Source of the DNA: Ignavibacteria bacterium
GTDB taxonomy: Bacteria; Bacteroidota; Ignavibacteria; Kapaibacteriales; UBA4661
Direction: 5' to 3'
DNA: 64,000 nucleotides
NCBI GenBank assembly: GCA_947459425.1
Contig: CANHDJ010000001.1
Location: 82,103 to 146,102, forward strand
Shown here: piece by piece, positions 4,821-36,827 of the stretch
Layout: each line of letters starts with the position of its first letter
Numbering within the stretch: position 1 is the first letter of the stretch
Program-made: the position numbers and the translations under genes
The notes under the pieces: generated by a model
Seen by the model: the letters and a program-made list of their open reading frames with translations, nothing else
Databases searched by the model: none
Told to the model about the DNA's origin: nothing

Positions 4821-5912
4821 CTAAAAAGTCCCAAAAGAAGTGAGTGTTTCAATAAGGTGAATATACGCGGCAATGCCGTCTCGAATTTCGTCAAGAAGAA
4901 TAAACTCATTCGCTGTGTGGGAGCGCTCCGACACGCCGGGACCGATTTTTACCGACGGAAACGGCATAACAGATTGGTCAGAGAGCGTTGCTGACGCAAA
5001 TGTCGTTATACCAAGCCGCTCCGCCGAACGTACTATAGGGTGCGCGAGGCTAATACTTGACGGGCGCAATCGTACTGAGCGCGGCAGAACCTCACAATTA
5101 ACATGATCAGCGATAACAGCTAGAACTTCCTCATGCGTGTAAACATCCGTTGTGCGAACGTCCACAACAAAGCTACAACGGTCGGGAATCACATTGTGCT
5201 GCGTCCCAGCATTGATCATCGTCACGCTCATTTTGATGGGACCAAGAAACGGAGAGGTTTTGGGGAACTCAAAGCAATGAAACCACTGAATATTGTGCAT
5301 TGCTTTGTCAATGGCATTAATTCCCGTATTACGTGCGGCGTGTCCCGAAGCCCCGTGTGCCGTACAATCCAGCACCATTAAGCCTTTTTCTGCAACCGCC
5401 AAAGCGCATTCCGTCGGTTCGCCAACGATAGCTGCGCTAATGCTCCCAAGTTCCGGCAAGATAGATTCCACACCATTTTTACCAATAATTTCTTCTTCTG
5501 CCGTTGCCGCCATAATAAGATTAAACGGTAAATCGGGGCGCTCGTAGAAATGCACAAACGTTGCAAGAAGGCTGACAAGCGCCCCGCCCGCATCATTGCT
5601 GCCCAAGCCGTACAGTACGCCATTTTCCTCACTCGCTTCAAAAGGGTTGCGCGTCCAATCTTGATTTGGCTTGACGGTATCGTGGTGAGAATTGAGCAGA
5701 AGTGTAGGCTTGGAGGAATCAAAATGGCGATTGCACGACCAGATATTATTCATTTGCCGCGCCGTCGGGATAGCTCGTTCATGGAGAAATTCTTGAATGA
5801 GCGAAGCCGTTTTGTCTTCCTCGCGGCTCAAGGAAGGCGTAGCGATAAGAAGTTTGAGCAAAGCAATAGCTTCAGGAACAAGGTGTGGTGCGGGATGGGG
5901 AAGATTTAGCAT
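4821..5912 (-). CDS. M20-family deacylase, ArgE/DapE-type (probably N-acyl-citrulline/ornithine deacylase)
   Basis: LNSHHDTVKP, YGLGSNDAGGALVSLL, AATAEEEIIGKNG; next to argB and argF'. ORF start moved from 5990 to the internal Met MLNLPHP, removing the overlap with argB. Confidence 0.82.
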   Translation of the reverse strand: MLNLPHPAPHLVPEAIALLKLLIATPSLSREEDKTASLIQEFLHERAIPTARQMNNIWSCNRHFDSSKPTLLLNSHHDTVKPNQDWTRNPFEASEENGVLYGLGSNDAGGALVSLLATFVHFYERPDLPFNLIMAATAEEEIIGKNGVESILPELGSISAAIVGEPTECALAVAEKGLMVLDCTAHGASGHAARNTGINAIDKAMHNIQWFHCFEFPKTSPFLGPIKMSVTMINAGTQHNVIPDRCSFVVDVRTTDVYTHEEVLAVIADHVNCEVLPRSVRLRPSSISLAHPIVRSAERLGITTFASATLSDQSVMPFPSVKIGPGVSERSHTANEFILLDEIRDGIAAYIHLIETLTSFGTF

Positions 5913-5925
5913 AATATCAATAAAA

Positions 5926-6714
5926 TTATTCCGCAATAATGGTTGTCCCGACGGAGTCTGCGTTCTGCAAACGCCCGATAGAATTTGCACTCATAATCGT
6001 AACCGCTTGAACACCGCGCCGCAGCGCCGCAAAAGCATTATCCATCTTGGGAATCATTCCTTTAGCGATTGCTCCCGAAGCGCGAAGATGCTCATAATCT
6101 TGCGCCGTAATGCGCGGTATGACGGACGCTTCATCGGCAATATCCCGCAAAACGCCTTGTTTCTCGAAGCAATAAACTAAACGCACATCGTACCGACTTG
6201 CCAGTGATGATGCGATCTCGGCGGCAATCGTATCGGCATTCGTGTTGAGTATGTTTCCTGCGCCATCGTGCGTGAGCGGTGCTAAAACAGGCAAAAATCC
6301 TTGCTGGAGCAAGCTATCAAGCCGTTCAGCAGAGACCCTTTCGACATCGCCAACAAAACCATAATCCGTCGTTGGGTGTATCCGCTTTTTTGCACGGATG
6401 ATATCGCCGTCAGCACCCGTCAAGCCCAAAGCATTCACACCATGCGCTTGCAAGCCCGCCACAATGCGCTTATTGACAAGCCCGCCATAGACCATCGTTA
6501 CCACATCCAACGTCGCTTGGTCGGTGACGCGCCGTCCATCAATCATCTGCGTTGCGATGCCGAGGCGGGCACTGAGGTCGGTGGCAAGTTTTCCGCCGCC
6601 ATGGACAAGTATCCATGAGGCTTTCAGCGATGCAAGGTTGCTCAAAAATGCGGCAAGAGCATCGGCACTGTCAATAACATTACCACCGATTTTAATAACA
6701 ATAAGAGGATTCAT
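5926..6714 (-). CDS. argB: Acetylglutamate kinase
   Basis: VIKIGGNVIDS, VHGGGKLATDL, NTNADTIAAEIA, GMIPKMDNAFAAL. Confidence 0.93.
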   Translation of the reverse strand: MNPLIVIKIGGNVIDSADALAAFLSNLASLKASWILVHGGGKLATDLSARLGIATQMIDGRRVTDQATLDVVTMVYGGLVNKRIVAGLQAHGVNALGLTGADGDIIRAKKRIHPTTDYGFVGDVERVSAERLDSLLQQGFLPVLAPLTHDGAGNILNTNADTIAAEIASSLASRYDVRLVYCFEKQGVLRDIADEASVIPRITAQDYEHLRASGAIAKGMIPKMDNAFAALRRGVQAVTIMSANSIGRLQNADSVGTTIIAE

Positions 6715-29866: not shown

Positions 29867-32800
29867 TTATCGCACAATGAGTATCTTTCGCATTTCGCTA
29901 AAGCGCTCCGCCCGCATACGGCAGAAATACACGCCCGGCGCAAGATGACCGACATTGATTTCGCCCTCAAATGAGCCTTCGGGAAAGCGATTGTCCGTAA
30001 CGGTCGCTTTCACTTGCCCAAGTGCATCCAGAATTTCCACCATAACGTGTGCCGGATACGCAACATCGAAGCCGACACGGACGTTATCGCTCACGGGATT
30101 CGGCGAAATGGCACTTAAGAGAAAGGTTTTCGTACTATTTAGTTTATTCACATAGTCCACTTTTGCTGCCAAACCGCACACAGAATCCAGTGCAAAAACA
30201 CCATTGATAGCCGCTCCTTCTAGCTGGGCGCGAAGGCAAGGACTTGTGCCAATAGAATCACTAAAGCGGATATTAGCAAGTTCAAGCGTTGTTTGGGCGC
30301 GTCGTCCCAGAAATGTAGAAAAATTCAACATAACCAGCGTTTCATTGCGCGGTCGCAGCGCGGAATCACGTGCCGTAATCGTGAACGTCAGCGTCATTTT
30401 ACCGTCGGCAGTGGTTGTCGTATCGGGATTCGGAACAACAGCATTCGAGCTTGCTGTCAGGTCGGTGATTGCCCGTTCAAAACGGAGCAAACTTTTATCA
30501 AAGGTAAGTTGAAAACGCACGACCTTTACAAAACGCAACGCCTCAGCATTCAGCATTGGCGAGCCATTTTGCCCAGGCTTGACAAGAATGGGAATAGAAA
30601 CGATTTGCCCCGGACTCGCACGAACACTTGCCGCAGATACAACGACACTCGGCTGTGCGCTGGCGCGTCCTTGCAATGGAATGCGGATGGTATCCTTATC
30701 TCGAGGGGCATCAGTCGTAATAAGCAGCGTCGCGGCGTAATCATTGACGTTATTGGGCGAAAACGAGACCGTGAGTGTTGTAGATTGTGCAGGAGCTAAT
30801 GTACCAGAAATAGCGACAAAAGGCAAACGGAACGGTGTTCCCGACTCAAGAATACTCGCCCTATACGACAAGGGTGTTCCGCAAAGTGCCGTTGCTGGAT
30901 TTGTTACCACGACATTGACGGTATTTTGTACTGTGCATTGCGACCCCAAGGGATTATCAGGAAACTGAACGCGGCTTGGCTGAACATCTACATTCGGCAC
31001 AACTCCCGTTCCACGAATCTCGACAATCACCTGTTCGACGCTATCTGGAGCAGTAGGGATGCGACCCATACGCTTGATATCGCTGTTCAAAACGTACTCA
31101 AATATTTTTTCGCCGACGTTGCCCGGGATAAAACGTACCGTCAAAGACGAATCTACCCCTCCAACACCAACCGCCCTGTTTGTCGTGAAATCTCGCACGA
31201 TACGAAATGCCGTATCGGAAGCGGCATTACCAGTCAAGGTGCGTGATGATTCCAAAGCAACAAACGGCAAATTACCATTATTCCGAAAAGCAAGGCGCAC
31301 CGTGCGAGAGAGTCCTACCCGTACACAACCAATATTCACGGTAAATTTGCGATAACCGCTTGGAGTAAACGAGGCTTGGACAGGCATAATCGGGCTATTT
31401 GTGGCAGCATCGGCAGTAGCACTTTCCATATCGAATTGCTGCCGCACACCAACACCGCGCAATCTCACCGACAATTCCTCTGCACCACCTGTTGAATCAA
31501 TACTGCTGGCAAGACGAATATTTGCGCTATCCAAGCCCAACACCTGCGGACGAAAGCGCAAGCGCATCTGCCCGCTTGCACCCACACCGTAACGCCGAGC
31601 AATAAGCGCAGTATCAAATGGCACAGCACTAAAGGCGCGGTCTGCCGTAACAGTCAGTGCTTCGATGCGTTGATTTTGGAGTGTCGCGGCGTGAAGCATG
31701 GAAAGATTGCGAATAAGCGTCGTATCGGTGCGCTCTACACCAATATACACCGAATCGAAATTAACAGTCGTCCGCGCCGGAGCGAGGACATTCGGCAAAC
31801 GCAGGGCGCGAAGTTCATAGTTGCGGCTGATCACATCCTCCCCGGTAATCGCACTTGTCACCTCAATCCGCAATCTTCCGCGCTTTGCTCCGGCAGGAAA
31901 TTCCGTATTGGCACGATAGCGTACACCGACGAGGATGCTTGTGCCTGTTGTTTCGGGAAGGCTGACTGTTTCTTGCAGTGTGGTAAATTCACGGTTATCG
32001 CCGCCAGTGTCGAGAAATGTCCGAATACGCAGGGGAAGATTGCCGACATTGCGCACAAGCACAGTCTGCGTGGCACTTGAACCCGTCACAAACGCGCCAA
32101 AATCAAGAAATTCTTCATCAATCGGTGGCACGGTGCGCTCAGTCGTGGCATCGGCAAGTTCGGCGCGTCCAAGAAAATAAATCGTATAATCTTCTAAATT
32201 TCGCCCGCGAAGAATGATAGAATCACGGTAATTGCCAATGCGGGTTGGGGTGAAATTGAGGGTGGAAGTCGAACGAACGCCCTCAATCGGCAATGGAAGA
32301 TTATTCAGTGGGTCGGGTCGAAATGTATCAAAATCAAAAGGGCTGTTTGGTGTCCGCACCACAGAATCTATCCTAAAAGTGTCTTGAACATCAGCAGCCC
32401 GAAAAAACTGAAATGAACTCCTTCCAAACGAAAATTTCGGTGCCGCCTTGACACTGCCCGTGATTGTTCCGAAATCAATCGTATTATTTTGACCCAACCC
32501 CGATACCGCGAGAACGCCTGCCGCGCCCGTTCCCACAAGCCGTAAGCGAAACACACTTTCCCCGCCACCACTACTCAAAGCAGGGTCATTCGTAATGATG
32601 CGCACGTCAAACGTTTGTGTGCCGAGATTGCGCGGTTGATAGGTTAAAAACAGCACCAGTGAATCACCATCGGGATTGATAAATTGCTGGGTATTGATGC
32701 TTCCCCTTGGCGAAAAAACGGTAAATGTATTGCTAGGATCATCCCCTTCAATCCGCACCGCGAGAGGCTCCAATCCTCGATTGAACAGCACGATACGACG

Positions 32801-33568
32801 TATTTGTAGAGGACTTGTCGGACGGAGCGAGCCGAAGTCTACGACCGTATCACGAAAGGGTTGCCGTGGGCGGTCATCATTGAGGATTCGTGCGGGCTGC
32901 ACGGATGCAACAGCAAAACTCGGTCGCGCCGAAAGGACGAGTTCGGGACTGATTCGGTTAATGCGCATAAGCAGCGTATCGCTGTTATCACGATATGCCA
33001 TATTGCTATTAAAGCCCAATTTATCAACAAACACAGCTTGCAGAGGCAAATTTGCGCCTTGGACGGTAGCAAAATAGCGGTTGTTGGGGTTATAGACATC
33101 GCTTGTGCGGTCAGGCACGAACGCAAAACGGCGCATCTGTACGGCATCGGTGAGGCGAAAATCCGTGCTTTGCGTTGCTGCCAGTAAAGGATTGGTGCGG
33201 GTTGTATTGGTGGCAAGATAGATGAGACACGGCGACGTGTCGGGCGTTGCGGCAAAGGTAGAACAATACTGCTCTGCGGCTGTGCCATTAGCATCAAGCG
33301 GCATCATTGGGCGCTGAATGCCCTGAAGCGGAGAGTTATTGACAAAAAAGCGTCCATCAACAGTGATGGGCGGGTTCTGACCTTCTCCAACAACACCGCG
33401 CCCTGTTACGCTCACGCTATACAGCACATTGCGAAAAAGGGTAATGTCGGATTGAGTCAGTGCTGAACGGCTAAGGGGAATACGCATCGTGGCGCTTGTC
33501 TGCGCGAAGATTGGCTCTGTACCAAGTAGAAACAGCGCCATTGTAAAGCAAAGAAGACGTGTCGGCAT
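29867..33568 (-). CDS. Giant secreted protein with repeated ASH/HYDIN-like Ig folds, cohesin-like region and T9SS-like C-terminal domain
   Basis: Repeated 'F/V-D-F/S-...-G-...-T-I-RN' blocks (VDFGSLRPTSPLQIRRIVLFNRG; LDFGAFVTGSSATQTVLVRNVG); C-terminus ISPNPVSDNVRVGFD...LAPGVYFCRMRAERFSEMRKILIVR. Confidence 0.82.
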   Translation of the reverse strand: MPTRLLCFTMALFLLGTEPIFAQTSATMRIPLSRSALTQSDITLFRNVLYSVSVTGRGVVGEGQNPPITVDGRFFVNNSPLQGIQRPMMPLDANGTAAEQYCSTFAATPDTSPCLIYLATNTTRTNPLLAATQSTDFRLTDAVQMRRFAFVPDRTSDVYNPNNRYFATVQGANLPLQAVFVDKLGFNSNMAYRDNSDTLLMRINRISPELVLSARPSFAVASVQPARILNDDRPRQPFRDTVVDFGSLRPTSPLQIRRIVLFNRGLEPLAVRIEGDDPSNTFTVFSPRGSINTQQFINPDGDSLVLFLTYQPRNLGTQTFDVRIITNDPALSSGGGESVFRLRLVGTGAAGVLAVSGLGQNNTIDFGTITGSVKAAPKFSFGRSSFQFFRAADVQDTFRIDSVVRTPNSPFDFDTFRPDPLNNLPLPIEGVRSTSTLNFTPTRIGNYRDSIILRGRNLEDYTIYFLGRAELADATTERTVPPIDEEFLDFGAFVTGSSATQTVLVRNVGNLPLRIRTFLDTGGDNREFTTLQETVSLPETTGTSILVGVRYRANTEFPAGAKRGRLRIEVTSAITGEDVISRNYELRALRLPNVLAPARTTVNFDSVYIGVERTDTTLIRNLSMLHAATLQNQRIEALTVTADRAFSAVPFDTALIARRYGVGASGQMRLRFRPQVLGLDSANIRLASSIDSTGGAEELSVRLRGVGVRQQFDMESATADAATNSPIMPVQASFTPSGYRKFTVNIGCVRVGLSRTVRLAFRNNGNLPFVALESSRTLTGNAASDTAFRIVRDFTTNRAVGVGGVDSSLTVRFIPGNVGEKIFEYVLNSDIKRMGRIPTAPDSVEQVIVEIRGTGVVPNVDVQPSRVQFPDNPLGSQCTVQNTVNVVVTNPATALCGTPLSYRASILESGTPFRLPFVAISGTLAPAQSTTLTVSFSPNNVNDYAATLLITTDAPRDKDTIRIPLQGRASAQPSVVVSAASVRASPGQIVSIPILVKPGQNGSPMLNAEALRFVKVVRFQLTFDKSLLRFERAITDLTASSNAVVPNPDTTTTADGKMTLTFTITARDSALRPRNETLVMLNFSTFLGRRAQTTLELANIRFSDSIGTSPCLRAQLEGAAINGVFALDSVCGLAAKVDYVNKLNSTKTFLLSAISPNPVSDNVRVGFDVAYPAHVMVEILDALGQVKATVTDNRFPEGSFEGEINVGHLAPGVYFCRMRAERFSEMRKILIVR

Positions 33569-33649
33569 GGAAAATTCCAAGAAAAGTCCAACGGAAGAAT
33601 GTGGAGAGGTTTTGCGAATGTGCGTTTGCACGACAATTTTGCGCACCAG

Positions 33650-34408
33650 TTATGACGCGAATTTACGCATTTGTCCAAGAACAACGCCAATAATGGCAAC
33701 CGTGCCGGAGCCTTCGTGAAAGGAGATTGGCGGGAATGTTTTTGTCGCCGCCTCCAATTCGGAAACACCGCCCATCCGCACAAAACGGCGAACGAGCAAG
33801 GTATCATGGAAAAGTGCAACAACAATATCACCTTCTGAAGCGCTAAATTGCTGCTTTGCCACAACAATATCTCCTTCGCGCAAACTTTCAGCACTCATAC
33901 CGTCATCACCAACAATAGCCGCAAAAAGCTGTGGCGGCGGTGCATCGGGAAGTGGCGCATCGGGAAGAAAAAAATCGGTATCAATTTTTATTTGTCCGCG
34001 CGGCGAAAGGAATGCCGAAAGCGGATTTTGAGCGATTCCGTCGCCAACAATCACCACATTTTTTACGCTTTGAAATTGATGGTTAAGCATTGGTGCTAAA
34101 CTGCGGTGCATCGTTGAAGGCAGAGCGGGAGCGGTTTGCGCGATATGCTTCGGCTGAGGCATAAAATCAACGATTTGAATACCACGCGAAGCACCTTTGG
34201 TCGAGCGCCGAATATAGCCTTTGCGCTCCAACGCCACTAAATACTGCGTCACGGCATTAGTGGAAGCAAACGAAAATTTATCGCCAATCTCTTTCATCGT
34301 TGGCGGAAAACCTCGCTCTTCAGTATAATCCTGCAAAAAACGCAAGACATCATGCTGCTTGGCGGTAAGTGGTTGTTTCGTAGAATCGGTGCTGATAGTA
34401 GCTTTCAT
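33650..34408 (-). CDS. lexA: LexA-family repressor with substituted autoproteolysis residues
   Basis: N-terminal wHTH LTAKQHDVLRFLQDYTEERGFPPTMKEIGDKFSFASTNAVTQYLVALERKGYIRR; C-terminal S24-like fold GDIVVAKQQ...GDIVVALF...LLVRRF...IIGVVLGQMRKF. Confidence 0.88.
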   Translation of the reverse strand: MKATISTDSTKQPLTAKQHDVLRFLQDYTEERGFPPTMKEIGDKFSFASTNAVTQYLVALERKGYIRRSTKGASRGIQIVDFMPQPKHIAQTAPALPSTMHRSLAPMLNHQFQSVKNVVIVGDGIAQNPLSAFLSPRGQIKIDTDFFLPDAPLPDAPPPQLFAAIVGDDGMSAESLREGDIVVAKQQFSASEGDIVVALFHDTLLVRRFVRMGGVSELEAATKTFPPISFHEGSGTVAIIGVVLGQMRKFAS

Positions 34409-34435: not shown

Positions 34436-36373
34436 TTACAAAAGGAGTTTGATGGGTGCGGGTGTATTGCTCGGCAAACTGCCATACGCTCGTGTTTGCG
34501 CGGCATCCAGCGAAAACTGCGCCGTTAAGCGCTGAAGCGCTTCTGCCGTCGAGCGCAGTGATTCTGCGGTTTTGGCAACATCGCGCACCGAGTAAGCAGA
34601 TTGCTCCGAGACGTTCCGAATATGCTCCATGCGCTGTGCAATATCGTCGCTGGCTTTGGACTGCTCTTCACTAGCGGCGGCAACATGGGTAATGGTGTCG
34701 GAGACCGTAGCGGTGCGCTGAATAATTGTTTCAAGCGCTTGTGCGGCATTGGCGGCAGAGCGTTTGCCGTTTTCAACCTGTTCGCGTCCGCCGTGCATCG
34801 CAGCAACAGCGCGGGCAGTCTCTTCTTGGATACGCTGAATTGTTACGGCGATTTCTTTCGTGGCTTTGGTGGTGCGCTCGGCAAGTTTGCGTACTTCATC
34901 GGCGACAACGGCAAAACCGCGACCTTGCTCGCCGGCGCGGGCGGCTTCAATAGCGGCATTCAGCGCCAGAAGGTTTGTTTGGTCAGCAATTTCCTCAATC
35001 GTTTGAATAACTTCACCAATTTGTTCGCTGGATTTGCCCAATTCTTCGATGGTTTTTGCGGAACTCATCACCACGTCGGCAACAGCATTCATGCCTAAAA
35101 TAGTCTCCCGAACAATATTACCACCATGAAGGGCATCTTTGCTTGTTTGTGTTGCTTCCGTGGCAACAAGCATGATTTGATGCGTATTTTCGCTGATAGT
35201 CCGGGTCATTTCCTCAACGGCGGCGGCGACTTGGGAGGTTTCAGCAGATTGTACACTCAGTCCCGAAGCAAGCTCTTCGGCGGCGGCTGAAATCTGCTCG
35301 GCAGCGGCGGCAGTAGTGTCAACGGCGCTAACAACTTTGCCCACAAGATTTCCCATTGTGCCGACCGCGCTATTGAAGCCCTCGAACAGCCGCCCTATCG
35401 TGTCGCGGTGTTCGATAGCCAGTTGCATCGTCAGATCACCCTTTGCCAAGCGTTGCATTTCGCGCAAGATTTCTTCGACTTTTTGCGAGAGATATTCTTG
35501 CTGGCGCACAGCCTCCGTGCGGGCATGGTTGGCTTCCTGCGCAGCGGTTTCGGCGAGAACGGTTTTGGCGCGAACTTCCGAAAGAAGATTGTTGATATTC
35601 CCGGACATGGTGTTGAATGATGTTCCCAGCGAACCGAGTTCGTCCGTCGAGCGCACCGTTGCTTGTGCTTCGGTATTACCGGAGGCAAGCAATTCTGCTG
35701 TCTTTTTCAGGTTTTGGATAGGTTTGAGCAAACTACGCAAAATCAGCCACGCGACACCAATACCGAAAATCAGCCCCACCACACCAATAAGGAGAAGCAA
35801 TGTTTTGAGTCGCTGCCCCCGTGCGGCAGAGTCTTCGTAGAGCTGTTTTCCTATGGTGTCTTGAATATCAATAATGGTGGTAATAGATTTTGCCACTTTT
35901 AAAAGAATCTGATTTTCTTCGCCGAAGTGCATTAGTTCTGCATTGGCGAATTGTTGCGAGCGACTAAGGGCTATTTTTTCATTGAAAATACGACGAAATT
36001 CTGCCAAGTCCGTTCGCAGTTGCTTGAGCGCAACCTCTTCTGCGGGAACAAGGTAAGTAGCGGCATAATCATTAATTTGCTTGTCAAAATCGGCGTTCAA
36101 TGCGGCAATTTTTATTTCCACGTCTTTGATGTCGAGCATACCTTCGGTTTTGATATAGGCAAGCGAATATTCCCGCATCTCAACAAGGTCTTTCGAGGCG
36201 CGATACATTTGAACGGTAGGAACTAGACGGTCTTTGTACATCGAATCAAAATTCGGAATAATCGCATTGATGGCTTGATGCCCCGCCGCAGCACTGATGA
36301 GAATAAGCAGCAACAGTGTTCCGTAGCCAATACGAAGTTTGGTCTTAATACTGAAATTGAAAAACCATTGCAT
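34436..36373 (-). CDS. Methyl-accepting chemotaxis protein
   Basis: N-terminal four-helix-bundle MCP domain between two TM segments, HAMP, and hairpin tip [42 protein letters not shown]. Confidence 0.95.
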
Positions 36374-36446: not shown

Positions 36447-36707
36447 TTATGCTTCTTCATACATTCGGACAGATTTCACATCGCGGATTTCTTTCCGCAA
36501 TATCCGTTCCACGCCTGATTTTAGCGTAATATTTGCAGCCGCACAGGTGCTACACGCCCCGCTTAACTGCACGAAAACAATGCCGTTTTCGATATGGTGA
36601 AAAGAGATTTTTCCACCGTCGCGTTCAATAAGGGGGCGTATTTTTTCGTCCATAATCATTGTTACACGCTCGAACAATGCCTCGTTGGAAAGAGTAGGGG
36701 CGACCAT
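36447..36707 (-). CDS. NifU C-terminal-domain protein (Fe-S scaffold)
   Basis: IRPLIERDGGKISFHHIENGIVFVQLSGACSTCAAANITLKSGVERILRKEI; CxxC. Confidence 0.93.
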   Translation of the reverse strand: MVAPTLSNEALFERVTMIMDEKIRPLIERDGGKISFHHIENGIVFVQLSGACSTCAAANITLKSGVERILRKEIRDVKSVRMYEEA

Positions 36708-36827
36708 AATAATTGGGGAGGTAGTGAAAAAATACTCGTTTTGCTATGAAACAATCGCAAACTAACTGTATTTTTGTTCACTTCAAAGCGCTTTTGAGTG
36801 TACATTTTATGAAAAATTCTGAACATC

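Follow-up and report, generated by a model that had tools for sequence, protein, structure and literature searches.

A LexA subfamily without self-cleavage determinants and with candidate operators at mraZ in Kapabacteria and related Bacteroidota

Introduction

In the textbook account the SOS response is switched by self-cleavage of LexA, which in E. coli requires Ser119 and Lys156. The LexA of Synechocystis sp. PCC 6803 is non-cleavable, without the Ala-Gly site and the catalytic serine, and acts outside the SOS response, where it is described as repressing many genes, those of the salt response among them (PMC7567884). In Bacteroidetes, a non-canonical LexA with a CI-like DNA-binding domain, an intact Ala-Gly bond and an intact Ser-Lys dyad controls an SOS regulon (PMC8565304), and the LexA of Balneolaeota binds the direct repeat TTACACATATTTTWTACATA at SOS genes (PMC7739468). 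In gut metagenomes, a LexA site at mraZ is bound in vitro by B. subtilis LexA, and because of this site a link between LexA and mraZ is known to exist elsewhere with a cleavable LexA (PMC3998124).

Here we describe a LexA homologue encoded in a 64,000-nucleotide stretch of an Ignavibacteria bacterium assembly (GCA_947459425.1, contig CANHDJ010000001.1, positions 82,103 to 146,102; hereafter the window), from the group Kapabacteria within Bacteroidota. A first-pass annotation of this DNA had treated the homologue as a single odd protein, and it in fact belongs to a subfamily, deep and conserved, whose members lack the catalytic dyad. We found no description of this dyad-less clade in the literature searched, which lay largely outside subscription journals, and the search returned nothing on LexA in Kapabacteria.

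With canonical LexA (E. coli, B. subtilis; TIGR00498) the window protein shares a two-domain architecture, fold and winged helix, a palindromic operator, whose consensus here includes GAAC-N4-GTTC, and likely autorepression. Unlike canonical LexA, it is without Ser119, Lys156 and the Ala-Gly bond, and its candidate operators lie at mraZ-dcw, with none at recA or umuD. The likeness to Synechocystis LexA, in the missing scissile bond and catalytic serine, is one of features; the two belong to different phyla and only the serine is named there as lost from the dyad (PMC7567884), whereas here every member has arginine for the lysine and the candidate sites are dominated by one small set at mraZ. 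The non-canonical LexA of Bacteroidetes is a LexA-like regulator from the same phylum (PMC8565304), but the window protein has a LexA winged helix and no dyad, and does not belong to that group. The gut metagenome site likewise ties LexA to mraZ, but was read as one site in the ordinary SOS regulon of a cleavable LexA, with no dedicated dyad-less protein (PMC3998124), and Balneolaeota LexA, which comes from a related group and whose regulon has been described, differs in binding its direct repeat at SOS genes (PMC7739468).

Results

The reading frame of the window lexA is open throughout (Table 1). The first-pass annotation had recognised a LexA N-terminal domain and an S24 fold, and both are borne out by Pfam (Peptidase_S24, PF00717, E=1.6e-13, besides the winged helix), by the NCBIfam lexA model (118 bits, above its cut-off of 111) and by the PDB, in which the sequence matches are LexA proteins and LexA structures resemble the AlphaFold model (mean pLDDT 84.9, above 90 across most of the S24 domain, with both domains confident). 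By descent and fold, the window protein is thus a member of the LexA family, and it is presumably dimeric. It is the sole PF01726/PF00717 (LexA or S24) protein found in the window's assembly (3.4 Mb, 86.6% complete), where a search for a second, canonical lexA, as the annotation had proposed, found none.

Table 1. Features of the lexA locus, in window positions.
Feature	Position	Strand	Evidence or remark
Dyad-less LexA, 252 aa	33650..34408 (coding 33653-34408)	minus	PF01726 + PF00717, NCBIfam lexA, PDB LexA fold, clade of 36
Arg207 replacing general base Lys156 (codon CGC)	33788..33790	minus	Arg in 36/36
Gly170 replacing nucleophile Ser119 (codon GGT)	33899..33901	minus	Column: Gly 27, Ala 6, Thr 2, Ser 1 (n=36)
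Cleavage-site columns Ala126-Gln127 vs E. coli Ala84-Gly85	34028..34033	minus	Alignment; variable across clade
Winged-helix DNA-binding domain, residues 12-76	34181..34375	minus	PF01726 E=2.4e-21; Ser49 and Asn51 invariant in 36 members
Methyl-accepting chemotaxis protein (MCP), probably co-operonic	34436..36373	minus	PF00015, PF00672; 27 bp upstream of lexA
NifU-like protein, probably heading the nifU-MCP-lexA operon	36447..36707	minus	PF01106
Putative autoregulatory operator ACTGTATTTTTGTTCACT	36765..36782	.	Between TTTG and TAGTTTG, apparent promoter boxes, read on minus strand

Each of the three determinants of self-cleavage is replaced in the window protein. The changes of the scissile Ala-Gly to Ala-Gln and of the general-base lysine to arginine (Arg207) are as first annotated. 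The change of the nucleophile serine to glycine also stands, and the one-residue insertion proposed with it does not: the window sequence V-G-D-D-G-M matches E. coli V-S-G-M-S-M column for column, and because these motif columns align without gaps Ser119 is simply Gly and an insertion is superfluous. Conservation of the three substitutions among relatives is uneven, with Arg207 invariant, the Gly170 column mostly Gly and the cleavage-site columns variable. Asp168 is kept as Asp in 35 of the 36 clade members, and the one member with Ser in the nucleophile column (L016) nevertheless has Arg at the lysine position. Across the C-terminal part of the 36 homologues no column reaches 50% conservation as Ser, Lys, Thr, Cys or His, and therefore no dyad is recovered at other positions. 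A sequencing error, which had been raised as a possible cause of the substitutions, is excluded by independent assemblies. That the window LexA is a non-cleavable repressor, as the annotation had thought probable, is well supported at the sequence level, all three determinants being gone and the loss conserved clade-wide.

The 36 dyad-less homologues come from Kapabacteria, Rhodothermia-like and other Bacteroidota-group genomes. In a tree made after removal of the trait columns from the alignment, they form one clade (SH-aLRT 98) nested inside canonical LexA; the tree was a quick one and its deeper branches are weakly supported. In comparison with 40 canonical LexAs that have the dyad, loss of the dyad is confined to this single clade and, separately, to L191, a pattern that on these sequences is not due to chance. 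L191 (G377:C5) represents a second, independent loss in an LexA of the LQEA type (GEAV, with Cys for Lys), and its genome also carries a dyad-less copy of the DDGM type (L190). Every Kapabacteria LexA read was dyad-less. In the same scan the LexAs of other phyla kept Ser and Lys, and kept Ala-Gly except in L110 (Ala-Ser), and the remaining dyad-less LexAs of this first scan were those of a Rhodothermus (L088) and of an entry titled Bacteroidetes (L081). A scan of the phylum (396 genomes, with 87 further stretches read) gave the same split between canonical LexA and a DDGM/Arg type in Kapabacteria, Rhodothermia-like and some other genomes. One canonical and one dyad-less LexA occur together in each of G366, G088, G264, G073, G197 and G097, and six genomes of 96-100% completeness have no S24 protein other than the dyad-less LexA. 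Many genomes of the same class have two canonical LexA paralogues (GRVAAG and GEVAAG types) with intact dyads (L145, L147, L149, L151, L153, L155, L157, L159, L161, L163), and repeats in front of the canonical copies L189, L192 and L194 resemble the Balneolaeota direct repeat.

In Rhodothermia-like genomes and several Kapabacteria families lexA is divergent from mraZ, which opens the cluster of division and cell-wall (dcw) genes, and the region between lexA and mraZ holds a tandem pair of palindromes of the form GTGAA-N6-TTCAC or aCTGAA-N6-TTCAGt. Members of the window's genus have lexA in a nifU-(MCP)-lexA operon, to which it has been relocated, and retain the palindrome pair upstream of mraZ. 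Strict TGAA-N6-TTCA tandem halves were too stringent as a search pattern, matching 1 of 10 genomes. A weight matrix built solely from sites where lexA adjoins mraZ recovered the pair upstream of mraZ in 12 of 15 held-out genomes that encode the protein and in which lexA has moved away, with none of 300 shuffles per genome scoring as high, and in none of 24 genomes of the same order or class without the protein (Fisher p 1e-7 for pair against protein in held-out genomes, kinship ignored). Within family f9, three genomes without the protein lack the pair and G025 and G032 have both. Despite the protein, no clear pair is present in G004, G009 and G017, and G012 has one good site only; in G097 (L202) lexA adjoins mraZ and the operator motif is absent. 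Perfect ACTGAA-N6-TTCAGT sites number only two in the window's assembly, both at mraZ, and G013 has three sites within one mismatch, two of them at mraZ.

Where lexA adjoins mraZ, operators of the one gene are indistinguishable from those of the other. In G013 and G032 the gene upstream is co-directional with mraZ, which leaves mraZ itself, or a transcript within its leader, as the only possible target of the operators in these two genomes. Next to the operators, we could assign no promoter reading toward mraZ. The distances between paired sites, searched from 20 to 59 bp, are 22, 30-34, 40-42 and 54 bp, corresponding to 2, 3, 4 and 5 helical turns (Rayleigh p about 1e-5 over 20 lineages). Dimers of S24-family phage repressors meet on one face of the DNA helix, and the phasing of the pair suggests cooperating dimers on one helix face here also. 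That the pair is owned by another transcription factor, with the dyad-less LexA being non-cleavable and serving an unrelated regulon, would accommodate the lack of a strong operator copy beside the relocated lexA and the four genomes that have the protein and no clear pair; we nevertheless consider this unlikely, since the presence of the pair tracks that of the protein, also within f9, its consensus includes what is a B. subtilis-type LexA box, it overlaps the lexA promoter where lexA adjoins mraZ, and in G004 and G005 an altered recognition helix goes with an altered operator site.

Several other elements were observed around mraZ. In the window's genome the place of lexA next to mraZ is taken by a gene for a 367-aa VWA-domain protein (L221 4946-6049), whose start lies about 100 bp beyond the operator pair. 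About 60 bp past the operators, in the region upstream of mraZ (L221 4464-4800, G000), the block TGTGAACAAAAAATAAC-N-ACAATA is strongly conserved, and after it comes a long inverted repeat (GCCnTTTTTnAGCAAAAAACGGC); the same region is found in other Kapabacteria, and block and repeat are present also in operator-less genomes (G017). They are possibly a dcw promoter and leader hairpin. Repeats of GTGGGGAAAAGTGGGGAA or GTGGGAGAAAGTGGGAGA before mraZ (e.g. L088 about 5714-5998, L221) resemble the binding boxes of MraZ itself. ACATAT hexamers, which recall half-sites of the SOS box of Balneolaeota, recur near the operators of Rhodothermia-like dyad-less lexA genes (L081, L175, L181, L188, L190, L200), and a scan for Balneola-type direct repeats at dyad-less lexA promoters gave no clear excess. 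The long dcw leader of Rhodobacter, which carries an sRNA (PMC5089854), may by analogy be a parallel to the mraZ leader here.

In the window, no operator was found within 300 bp of lexA, and a site instead precedes the first gene of the operon, from which the MCP gene is missing in L038. The matrix score of this site is weak (10.6), yet it is conserved at the same place in the genus, and the sequences flanking it look like two Bacteroidota-type promoter boxes. Where lexA adjoins mraZ, 8 of 15 genomes have a TAnnTTTG-like -7 box behind the operator on the lexA side, and none has one behind the operator on the mraZ side; where lexA is relocated, such a box was found in 1 of 12. The promoter-overlapping site and the lexA-side boxes fit autorepression by the dyad-less LexA. 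Downstream of lexA, at 29867-33646, is the gene for a 1259-aa protein that by eye has repeated immunoglobulin-like stretches and a C-terminus resembling those of type IX secretion.

RecA was found in 20 of 20 genomes searched, and the umuD-like proteins read have all retained Ala-Gly or Cys-Gly together with Ser and Lys. In a scan directed at recA and umuD-like genes among the repair genes, neither the 21 recA loci nor the umuD-like loci scanned had an operator scoring at least 12. The window protein therefore has none of three features of an SOS LexA: Gly170 and Arg207 stand in place of the Ser-Lys dyad, Ala-Gln stands in place of an Ala-Gly (or Cys-Gly) scissile bond, and recA and umuD-like loci are without operators; on these sequence features it is not an SOS LexA. 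The first-pass annotation had suggested that its regulon might escape the usual SOS induction, and this is now more strongly supported than the sequence alone allowed, the likely operators lying at mraZ-dcw and its own operon. It could still be that the protein represses repair genes and after damage is removed by another protease, or is released uncleaved through contact with RecA, as might be argued from the ubiquity of RecA, the assignment of the protein to LexA by family models and the lack of any other LexA in several nearly complete genomes. The lack of operators at recA and umuD-like genes, the location of nearly all good sites at mraZ and the second, canonical LexA alongside it in several genomes make this somewhat less likely still than ownership of the pair by another factor.

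Between the window lexA and its nearest relatives, dN/dS is 0.016-0.07 (about 0.05), and we conclude from these comparisons that the dyad-less lexA is under purifying selection; the tree gives it a single origin. A decaying, functionless relic, as the missing catalytic residues, the variable linker and the absence of the gene from some families of the order might suggest, is contradicted by this purifying selection across the clade and is highly improbable also given its deep single origin, the invariant Arg207, the conserved DDGM motif and the presence of both intact domains (PF01726 and PF00717) in 36 of 36 members.

Discussion

We consider it probable, at roughly two chances in three, that the window protein belongs to a non-proteolytic, autoregulated LexA subfamily that is bound at mraZ-dcw and is not an SOS switch. 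It would be an ancient DNA-binding protein with the LexA fold, incapable of cutting itself, that binds the two tandem palindromic operators in the mraZ (dcw) control region, where its dimers probably cooperate on one face of the DNA, and that represses its own promoter. A non-cleavable LexA on both the mraZ operators and its own promoter would act as a constant regulator at the control region of the division cluster, repressing or activating mraZ, rather than an SOS switch triggered by RecA. In this account operator binding, cooperativity, autorepression and the mraZ-dcw target are all things that we infer from patterns in the genomes.

More tentatively, proteolysis may have been lost once, early in the Bacteroidota group, with LexA becoming a dedicated regulator of division and the cell wall and Arg207 and DDGM forming a structural or ligand-sensing pocket; lineages that lack a canonical LexA would then have no RecA-cleavable repressor of the LexA type.

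As family models label these proteins SOS LexA, SOS circuits are being assigned to bacteria that possibly do not have them. The dyad-less clade permits a clean test of roles of the S24 domain besides cutting, and relatives of Rhodothermus can be cultured, making the prediction directly testable. If it is true, a clade with the LexA fold that lost proteolysis once and remained tied to mraZ-dcw would represent a repressor that has moved from DNA damage to cell division.
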